NCBI RefSeq assembly: GCF_018861045.1
Contig: NZ_JAHKQJ010000010.1
Span: 434,001-498,000, forward strand
From: Octadecabacter sp. B2R22
GTDB taxonomy: Bacteria > Pseudomonadota > Alphaproteobacteria > Rhodobacterales > Rhodobacteraceae
Direction of reading: 5' to 3'
Length of the DNA stretch: 64,000 nt
Shown: positions 48,319-49,900 of the stretch, one piece after another
Layout of the letters: every line of letters begins with the position of its first letter
Position numbering within the stretch: the stretch's first letter is position 1
Translations under genes and position numbers: made by a program
Notes under the pieces: model-generated
What the model was told of the DNA's origin: nothing
Databases searched by the model: none
The model's input: only the letters and a program-made list of their open reading frames with translations

Positions 48319-48807
48319 ATGATGAAATCGAAAATTTTTGCAACGACCGCTTTGGTAGCAGTGTCTGCAACCTTCGCGATGGCCCAATCGCCAACAGATC
48401 AGATTGTCGCTAATCTGCAATCGCAGGGTTTTACACGGATCGAAATCGAAGAAGGCCCAACCCAGATCAAAGTTGAAGCGATCCGCGCCAGTAATAGGCT
48501 CGAAGTCGTTTACAGCGTCTTGACCGGTGAGATTCTGCGTCAGGAAATGGAACCTGTTGATCGCGGAGACGACACATCGCCTGGCCTTGAAATTGATACC
48601 GCAGATGAAGATTTTGTCGGCGATGATGACCACGACGACGACGACGATGATGACCACGACGACGACGATGATGACCACGACGATGATGACGACGACGATG
48701 ATGACGACGATGATGATGATGACGACGATGATGATGATGATGATGATGATGATGATGACGACGATGATGATGATGATGACGACGATGATGATGATGATGA
48801 CGACTAG
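48319..48807 (+). CDS. Exported PepSY-like protein with a poly-aspartate tail
   Basis: A 162-residue exported protein. The signal peptide ends near residue 22 (A-T-F-A-M-A-Q). Residues about 23-78 form a PepSY-like domain (I-V-A-N-L-Q-S-Q-G-F-T-R-I-E-I-E, then V-V-Y-S-V-L-T-G-E-I-L-R). From residue 102 to the end (61 residues) the chain is nothing but Asp with a few His. Such a tail would bind Ca2+ or other divalent metals and be highly charged in the periplasm or outside; this is inference. A paralogue with an Asp/Glu tail follows 72 bases later, and a membrane-tethered regulator after that. Confidence 0.8.
   Translation: MMKSKIFATTALVAVSATFAMAQSPTDQIVANLQSQGFTRIEIEEGPTQIKVEAIRASNRLEVVYSVLTGEILRQEMEPVDRGDDTSPGLEIDTADEDFVGDDDHDDDDDDDHDDDDDDHDDDDDDDDDDDDDDDDDDDDDDDDDDDDDDDDDDDDDDDDDD
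48622..48804 (+). repeat. GAY trinucleotide tract encoding the poly-Asp tail
   Basis: 183 bases of GAC/GAT codons interrupted by CAC or CAT (His) only near the start. Codon choice wanders between GAC and GAT with long GAT runs from about 48721. Slippage in threes would change tail length without breaking the frame. Confidence 0.9.
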
Positions 48808-48879
48808 GTCATTGTCTCCAGACGCTTTACTTCACACCTCAGGCCGTCCGGCCTGGGGTTTCACTTGCGGGGGACATGA

Positions 48880-49359
48880 ATGCTAAAACGGATTTTAACC
48901 GCTGCCAGTCTTGCGATCGTTGTTGCCACGAGCGCCGGAGCGCAGACGACGCAAGACGACATAATCCGGCAGCTACAGGCTGATGGGTATCGGGATATCC
49001 GGGTGTCTCGCACTTGGTTGGGAAGGGTCCGTGTGGTTGCCGAAGGAGGTGATCGGCACCGCGAGGTTGTGTTCAATCCAATCACCGGAGAGATTCTGCG
49101 CGATTTTGTCCAGCGCAATCATCGCGAATTAGAGCATGACGATGATGATCGGTCGACAACACGCCCGACAAGCAATGGTGGTGCCACGGGCGGTGATGAA
49201 GATGACGATCATCAAGACGATGAAGATGAAGATGACGACGAAGATGATGAAGATGATGAAGACGATGATGAAGATGAAGATGACGACGAAGATGAAGACG
49301 ATGATGAAGACGATGATGAAGACGATGATGAAGATGAAGATGAGGGGGAAGACGATTGA
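48880..49359 (+). CDS. Exported PepSY-like protein with an Asp/Glu-rich tail (paralogue)
   Basis: A 159-residue exported protein with signal peptide (ending A-G-A-Q near residue 22). Residues 23-76 repeat the PepSY-like pattern of the previous protein: D-D-I-I-R-Q-L-Q-A-D-G-Y-R-D-I-R-V and V-V-F-N-P-I-T-G-E-I-L-R. A Ser/Thr/Gly linker (about 91-105) leads to a tail (106-159) almost entirely Asp and Glu. It differs from its neighbour in tail composition, so the tails probably expanded independently. A GC-rich hairpin (CAGGCC...GGCCTG, about 48838-48856) lies between the two genes. Confidence 0.8.
   Translation: MLKRILTAASLAIVVATSAGAQTTQDDIIRQLQADGYRDIRVSRTWLGRVRVVAEGGDRHREVVFNPITGEILRDFVQRNHRELEHDDDDRSTTRPTSNGGATGGDEDDDHQDDEDEDDDEDDEDDEDDDEDEDDDEDEDDDEDDDEDDDEDEDEGEDD
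49195..49356 (+). repeat. GAY/GAA tract encoding the Asp/Glu tail
   Basis: 162 bases of mixed GAT, GAC and GAA codons, with recurring GATGAAGATGAAGATGAC-type units of about 15-21 bases. Unlike the upstream tract it contains many GAA codons, so the two tracts are not recent copies of each other. Confidence 0.85.
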
Positions 49360-49396
49360 TCTGCTTTACACCCCGATACGCCGAATGTAGCCCTCT

Positions 49397-49900
49397 ATGA
49401 CCCATCGCTTTGTCCTGATCTCGATCTTTGCCTTACAGATTGTCTGTGCTGCGTTTTTTGTGTTGAAAACTTTCTCTGCGCTTTTGGGCATCGGGCCCTT
49501 CTCTTGGCAGCTTCTTGAATTGATCGAGATCGGCGCCGCCTTGGGCTTGTTGTTGGGGGCGGTTCTTGGGGGATTGGCGGTGCGGCGGTCACTGAGACGC
49601 TCCGCACGGATCGAGGATCAGCTGCGGGCAGCGTCCGGTGCCTTCATGGAGCTGTTGAACGATCGGTTTGACCAGTGGTCCCTCACGCCAGCAGAGAAGG
49701 ACGTGGCATTGTTTTCTATTAAAGGCCTGTCGACCGCCGAAATAGCACAACTGCGCGAGACGTCTGAGGGCACCGTGAAGGCGCAAACCAACGCGATCTA
49801 CCGCAAGGCCAAGGTGAGCGGCCGTTCCCAACTTTTGGCGCTATTCATTGATGATTTGGTGGATATGCCTGCCGCTGCTGAAAAAGCCACCAGCGGCTAG
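49397..49900 (+). CDS. Membrane-anchored LuxR-type helix-turn-helix regulator
   Basis: A 167-residue protein with two N-terminal hydrophobic segments (about residues 6-28 and 40-58) joined by a short loop, then R-R-S-L-R-R and a cytoplasmic part. The C-terminal LuxR/GerE helix-turn-helix reads L-T-P-A-E-K-D-V-A-L, G-L-S-T-A-E-I-A-Q-L-R-E-T-S-E-G-T-V-K-A-Q-T-N-A-I-Y-R-K. There is no receiver or autoinducer domain. The topology suggests a DNA-binding protein held at the inner membrane. It follows the second acidic-tail gene by 37 bases and likely shares its transcript, so the acidic proteins may be its signal or its targets. Confidence 0.82.
   Translation: MTHRFVLISIFALQIVCAAFFVLKTFSALLGIGPFSWQLLELIEIGAALGLLLGAVLGGLAVRRSLRRSARIEDQLRAASGAFMELLNDRFDQWSLTPAEKDVALFSIKGLSTAEIAQLRETSEGTVKAQTNAIYRKAKVSGRSQLLALFIDDLVDMPAAAEKATSG

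Follow-up and report, generated by a model that had tools for sequence, protein, structure and literature searches.

A trpB-linked cassette of acidic-tailed, PepSY-like exported proteins and a membrane-anchored GerE regulator in Octadecabacter and its relatives

DbfQRS is the closest known system to the locus analyzed here, and ToxR/ToxS-type membrane regulators are also close. In V. cholerae, the periplasmic PepSY protein DbfQ is described as binding the sensory domain of the kinase DbfS with a Kd of 30 nM, and output rose when basic DbfQ or acidic DbfS residues were mutated as well as under membrane-targeting agents (PMC12714742). In P. aeruginosa, the tandem PepSY genes PA2658/PA2659 precede BqsRS, and only the proximal product is predicted to bind (PMC12714742).

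The window (the whole analyzed stretch of 64,000 nucleotides from Octadecabacter sp. B2R22) contained two consecutive genes for exported proteins, P1 and P2 (of types T1 and T2, respectively), followed by the gene of a membrane regulator, REG (Table 1). The first-pass annotation had placed the three genes, the 37 bases separating P2 from REG and both acidic tails exactly as they were found. The new elements are an operator palindrome with accompanying half-sites, first-gene positions occupied by EF-hand or tail-only proteins, and paralogous neighborhoods with plain PepSY proteins and cytochrome b561. No description of the cassette was found among open-licence PMC papers, a search from which absence from print is not implied. 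Long aspartate tails, usually dismissed as low complexity, are here tied to a defined regulator and DNA site, and the locus offers a testable explanation of how signals could reach a LuxR-type protein devoid of a sensor domain.

Proteins encoded at the locus

Table 1. Features of the cassette, in window coordinates
Feature	Position	Strand	Description
Terminator-like stem-loop after trpB	48137..48164	+	11 pairs, 7 G-C, T-rich tail; consensus match only
Operator palindrome CATAAAC-TGAG-GTTTATG	48175..48192 (core 48177-48190)	.	predicted REG site
Second, everted half-site pair GTTTA-N12-TAAAC	48207..48228	.	starts 30 bp after palindrome core start
P1 (T1)	48319..48807	+	162 aa; signal peptide (by eye), PepSY-like domain, acidic tail
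P1 tail	48622..48804	+	61 Asp/His residues
P2 (T2)	48880..49359	+	159 aa; signal peptide (by eye), PepSY-like domain, acidic tail
P2 tail	49195..49356	+	54 residues, Asp/Glu-dominated
REG	49397..49900	+	167 aa; two-helix membrane hairpin, long helical linker, C-terminal GerE (LuxR-type) HTH

The P1 tail comprised 58 D and 3 H, with aspartate encoded by 34 GAT and 24 GAC codons, a mixture showing that it is not a pure trinucleotide run. In the P2 tail, 51 residues were D or E (35 D, 16 E), the others being 1 H, 1 Q and 1 G. A V/I-rich open reading frame runs mechanically across the Asp run on the reverse strand (48241-48678, -); in all likelihood the repeat produces it as an artefact. Sequence inspection, a basic scripted rule and the structure model served to call signal peptides and membrane helices.

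P1 scored 18.7 bits against Pfam PepSY_2 (20.9 without its tail), below the cut-off of 24.3, and the P2 domain, which carries the motif RTxLGRxRIVA..REI..NPxTGEILRD, had no Pfam match at E<=0.01. The assignment to PepSY (Pfam PF13670/PF03413) therefore draws on relatives, paralogous partners and the T2 model. PepSY_2 matches at E<=0.01 were obtained for 13 of 19 T1 and 6 of 25 T2 alignment rows (the rows of the window included), and two paralogous REG partners exceeded the PepSY cut-off, with 58 bits (class II partner) and 53 bits. The T2 model consisted of one helix and four strands (block pLDDT 95-97, residues 31-80); its structure matches were only middling, part of them PepSY-type entries, and Foldseek returned nothing at E<=0.001. 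For the PepSY-like domains named in the first-pass annotation, profile matches were obtained in part of the relatives, while P1 fell under the cut-off and P2 was unmatched. Residues R49, R61 and R74 of T2 were invariant in the 25 aligned rows.

REG passed the Pfam GerE cut-off (30.6 vs 23.5 bits). Its model displayed a helix (residues 2-30), a six-residue loop and one long helix (37-93), with the GerE helices following (98-155). Neither an autoinducer-binding nor a receiver domain preceded the HTH (Pfam at E<=1; hairpin and linker only in the model), and no kinase or receiver match was obtained for REG at the same E-value, neighboring open reading frames being judged by eye. The earlier view of a two-helix LuxR-type regulator devoid of sensor domain was borne out: as modeled, REG leaves no space for an extramembrane sensor domain, and its sequence and model describe a DNA-binding domain on a membrane anchor. 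Invariant residues of the hairpin were Q14, W37, E41, G50 and G54; W37 and E41 were invariant in 41 aligned rows and both placed by the model at the membrane surface.

Inheritance of the cassette and its operator

A REG profile was scanned against named bacterial genomes, and the best 80 of 491 confirmed loci were analyzed. Within this set, 78 loci had a PepSY open reading frame immediately 5' of REG and in the same orientation, the other two being cut by contig ends. The protein directly upstream was of T2 type in 77 of the 78 uncut loci (75 by motif rule; L075 and L105 by eye), the exception being L102, where it was T1-like. A T1-class gene was found by motif rule in 52 of these best 80 loci (a count including L102 and a seemingly decayed T2 copy in L085), while trpB lay upstream in 69 and DUF2237 downstream in 63. 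As these flanks are common to most loci, the place of the cassette is probably ancestral. A plasmid origin was rejected: the plasmid collection gave 3 records only, with about half of REG covered, and the chromosomal place was common to most relatives. In L087 (2037-5456) the genes were duplicated as T2-REG followed by T1-T2-REG, and a separate operator belonged to each copy (1860, 3469).

Searches of 395 genomes of the family (REG-like at E<=1e-12, T2 at E<=1e-4) retrieved REG-like proteins in 242 and T2 in 187; both occurred in 185, REG only in 57 and neither in 151, which puts both genes in roughly half of the sample from this major marine family. T2 without REG was limited to 2 of the 187 genomes (G223, G358), both with weak T2 matches. 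The T1/T2-REG genes form one inherited cassette, and the joint system put forward in the first-pass annotation is upheld by the position of T2 beside REG and by the rarity of T2 apart from it. Of the trio order whose conservation it had proposed to check, the T2-REG part held and the first gene did not; a fixed T1/T2/REG trio was rejected because slot 1, between trpB and T2, varies.

Within the genus of the window, a trpB locus was obtained from 16 of 19 genomes. In fourteen of the 15 other loci, the 1.5 kb viewed after trpB was free of operator, PepSY and REG; DUF2237 was visible in 12 of these 14, and L221 had a one-mismatch operator site on the opposite side of trpB. The fifteenth (L226, from a genome 61% complete) contained the operator and T1 before its contig ended inside the Asp run; acidic tails may thus break assemblies and cause genes to be missed in draft genomes.

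Slot 1 was usually occupied by T1. In four genomes (L041, L122, L123, L174) it encoded instead an exported EF-hand pair with a similar acidic tail, each protein scoring above a Pfam EF-hand cut-off without its tail; these loci came from a pattern scan of 210 loci, in which L137 is a second view of the L041 protein and L144 of L174. In about ten other loci, inspection by eye showed only a signal peptide and a tail that was acidic or of low complexity, no domain being present. Such EF-hand or domain-less slot-1 proteins point to cations, probably calcium, and the EF-hand replacement lends indirect support to the earlier suggestion that the acidic proteins report metal state. Among the features examined, none spoke for the other state named there, that of protein folding. 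Side genes were also observed. A putative 2OG-Fe(II) oxygenase of about 206 aa lay between T1 and T2 in L035, L064, L066, L093 and L110 (PF13759, 79 bits in L035; the other four loci by eye). A small protein (VRDQL...EVDVRWN-like) without evident signal peptide preceded T2 in L067, L101 and L106, and that of L101 had no Pfam match.

Tails ranged in composition from pure D through DE and DR to G/S-rich, most of them net negative, and T2 tails from 36 to 344 residues in length. The term poly-Asp of the first-pass annotation was therefore too narrow in composition and sound as to charge. A net negative charge of at least 10 was displayed by 51 of 53 T1 tails and 71 of 78 T2 tails, with few acids in some, such as T2 of L052 (glycine-rich) and of L101. 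Between T1 and T2 tails of the same locus, D+E fraction was correlated (Spearman 0.82, n=51), as was length (0.74), both values ignoring kinship; this likeness could come from gene conversion that homogenized the tails instead of co-selection.

When dyads were counted without bias in the 220 bases preceding slot 1 in 62 upstream regions, the single prominent signal was TAAA-N6-TTTA. It was present in 47 regions (mean over 20 Markov shuffles, 0.1), and all 47 sites read TAAAC-N4-GTTTA. The consensus, CATAAAC-N4-GTTTATG, lay 119-210 bases (mostly 120-180) before the start codon and was followed by half-sites at fixed spacing, GTTTA at exactly +30 and TAAAC at exactly +47 (columns +30..+34 and +47..+51, consensus base in 30-43 of 47 loci). 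Besides the operator columns, conservation was low save for a few near +24, +56, +61 to +64 and +83. The window contained the whole arrangement (48175-48228), with no match in 100 shuffles. The exact palindrome was missing in 15 of the 62 regions, and 13 of 31 re-examined loci (without exact site, or outside the 62) had no site within one mismatch. Among EF-hand loci, L041/L137 had a one-mismatch site only, L123 none, and L122 and L144 a site before the slot-1 gene. The operator was kept where neighbors differ: in L032, where an extra gene separates trpB from slot 1; in L058, where no trpB was found; and in L102, where trpB and DUF2237 were both undetected. Genomes with exact TAAACYNNRGTTTA numbered 128 among the 185 that have REG and T2, 7 among the 57 that have REG only and 18 among the 151 that have neither. 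The operator site travels with the cassette.

Terminator-like matches in the region numbered 3 (0.8 expected) and promoter-like matches one (1.6 expected). Given the terminator-like stem-loop after trpB, the cassette is probably its own transcription unit. Exact TAAACNNNNGTTTA occurred at three places only in the window's own genome. A wide regulon was rejected: the other two TAAACNNNNGTTTA sites (L247, L248) showed no clear promoter target by eye, and sites found when one mismatch was tolerated were fewer (37) than in the reversed control (102). The best reading is that REG would autoregulate its own cassette, with no wide regulon; the conserved operator, as a site predicted from sequence, gives good support to the earlier proposal that the acidic proteins are the regulated output of REG.

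Paralogous regulators and their sites

REG loci lacking T2 were examined in 39 of the 57 REG-only genomes (40 loci). Another PepSY protein lay upstream on the same strand in 31 of the 40, and the gene arrangements were PepSY-cytochrome b561-REG in 23, PepSY-REG in 8, cytochrome-REG in 1 and neither partner in 8, the last including the contig-end loci L171 and L176 and the EF-hand locus L174. The three-gene module was observed in L178, L180, L181, L183, L184, L186, L191-L206 and L209, with the cytochrome b561 of L194 matching PF01292 at 76 bits. In L172, L175 and L210, REG was preceded by another small exported protein (in L175 and L210, ...EGGYVDELGFINA...), for which no PepSY match was obtained and no EF-hand seen. 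Exact TAAAC sites were present in L172, L174, L180, L190 and L209 only among the 40 loci.

The first-pass annotation had regarded a regulator without acidic genes, or acidic genes without it, as speaking against a joint system. The acidic gene alone was rare, as given above, while REG stood without T2 in 57 of 242 genomes, yet most of the T2-less loci had another PepSY protein. Across the whole class, a REG-like protein was found in 24 of 337 genomes (20 outside the family), with PepSY upstream on the same strand within 1.5 kb in 8 of 18 REG loci (two from the family). From the T2-less and class-wide loci together, a PepSY partner is common in this regulator family; the acidic tail is a speciality of the trpB-linked class.

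Among nine paralogous regulators with an RAQ recognition helix, TAAGC-N4-GCTTA lay upstream exactly in 4 and within one mismatch in 8, against 0 of 103 KAQ/KSQ regulators within one mismatch, in the same data (9 RAQ, 103 KAQ/KSQ) in which the rule was noticed. In later loci from other families, an exact TAAGC site accompanied three RAQ regulators (L230, L231, L232) and one RSQ regulator (L236, with the site near REG and no PepSY gene found there), and the very divergent RLQ-type regulators L244 and L246 had no TAAGC site in the stretch examined. By eye, 4 of 8 KxH regulators had a site of asymmetric form, TAAAC-N4-GTTATAG. Two steps on the tree were required for the change of helix and one for that of the operator, so that species counts are not independent, and an independent-pairs comparison of helix and operator provided one pair only and no power. 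Helix and operator thus appear in good agreement over few independent events. The operator, together with paralogues of other specificity, provides material for clean experiments.

Possible mechanism and comparison with known systems

The cassette may be an autoregulated envelope-sensing module, combining REG on its operator, T2 as sensor half, cation-binding tails and feedback, a reading to which we give an even chance. REG would be an inner-membrane hairpin with almost nothing outside, whose cytoplasmic GerE domain would bind CATAAAC-N4-GTTTATG and the neighboring half-sites and control its own operon. Site conservation, linkage and co-occurrence were observed; activation or repression by REG is left to inference. 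T2 would form the outside half of the sensor, with R49, R61 and R74 docking on W37/E41 of REG at the membrane surface, as their conservation suggests. Basic T2 invariants and an acidic REG E41 match the polarity of DbfQ/DbfS, and T2 is therefore proposed to clamp REG. The tails of T2 and of the slot-1 protein may act as a polyelectrolyte binding divalent cations, most likely Ca2+, and cation occupancy would alter the competition of the tails for the basic face of T2, hence its engagement of REG. The output would be more acidic tail, closing a feedback loop on the cation state of the envelope. The paralogous modules, with plain PepSY and cytochrome b561, would agree with calcium and equally with redox or iron as the signal.

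A tentative and rather unlikely proposal makes the sensor a disordered, detachable polyanion. The exported proteins with acidic tails (whether PepSY, EF-hand or nothing but tail) would serve as a tethered, cation-gated competitor for the PepSY clamp on a membrane GerE regulator without sensor, and this regulator would in turn produce further polyanion. If true, low complexity itself would do the sensing, and the system would represent a one-component envelope sensor of a new class. PhoQ uses an acidic patch for sensing; the acidic patch would here be PhoQ-like but located on separate, interchangeable proteins.

These readings have to be weighed against others in which the acidic proteins sense nothing, or sense something else. 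The hairpin of REG may itself respond to the membrane (lateral pressure, lipid charge), the acidic PepSY and EF-hand proteins being a product only, a periplasmic or surface cation buffer outside signaling. The conserved operator, the slot-1 proteins that are sometimes a tail without recognizable domain, and a hairpin that has a six-residue outside loop yet keeps Q14, W37, E41, G50 and G54 invariant all agree with such an output-only loop. Two observations speak against it: T2 in contrast to slot 1 keeps a specific motif and its place beside REG (77 of 78 loci), and most paralogous REG loci retain a PepSY partner (31 of 40) despite differing tails and neighbors. We hold this alternative to be rather unlikely.

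The neighborhoods of the paralogues raise the question of redox, heme or iron sensing. In that case the PepSY partner would report on electron transfer in the membrane or on the redox state of a metal, and the acidic tails would be an addition specific to the lineage. Cytochrome b561 accompanied PepSY and REG in 23 of the 40 T2-less loci and REG alone in one more, L012 also has a c'-type cytochrome (by eye), and the PepSY proteins UipA (uranium, iron) and LanP (lanthanides) are described as metal-binding. Beside the cassette of the window, however, no redox gene was seen (open reading frames judged by eye), though five cassettes include the putative 2OG-Fe(II) oxygenase, and slot 1 was exchanged for EF-hands in four genomes, not for a redox domain; the explanation is improbable. 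That the tails are neutral low-complexity expansions, produced by codon slippage on ordinary PepSY proteins, would account for their widely varying sequence and length (36-344 residues in T2), but is very improbable given their mixed codons, their net negative charge of at least 10 in 51 of 53 T1 and 71 of 78 T2 proteins, and the like tails of EF-hand and domain-less slot-1 proteins.

Several described proteins share parts of this organization. The best NCBIfam match of REG was the LIC13292 family transcriptional regulator (NF047608, 166 positions), similar in length and in HTH place; REG, with 56 bits, was far under its cut-off of 200 and matched over residues 78-154 only. That family was not named in any paper found in the open-licence PMC literature. 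UipA and LanP are described as PepSY proteins that bind uranium and iron or, for the periplasmic LanP with acidic residues in its metal site, lanthanides; a linked membrane regulator or acidic low-complexity tail is not part of the brief descriptions consulted. ToxR/ToxS and TcpP/TcpH share with the cassette a membrane-anchored one-component transcription factor and a partner, and differ in that many of the partners are said to be lipocalin-like (PMC10269533). In REG, the GerE domain stands at the C-terminus, after a two-helix hairpin. The terms LuxR, GerE and PepSY were absent from the main text of that account of co-component membrane regulators (term search, PMC10269533).

DbfQRS and PA2658/PA2659-BqsRS share with the cassette a small exported PepSY protein encoded beside a membrane regulator, sometimes in tandem, and DbfQRS also shows the feedback on its own operon and the envelope signal that are proposed here (PMC12714742). 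The described system relies on a histidine kinase with periplasmic sensory domain and a response regulator, and the sections of its description consulted do not mention an acidic tail or EF-hand (PMC12714742). In the cassette, by contrast, a single two-helix membrane GerE protein takes that position, in which no kinase, receiver or sensor domain was found. If the proposed mechanism holds, PepSY signaling would extend from two-component systems to one-component membrane regulators.
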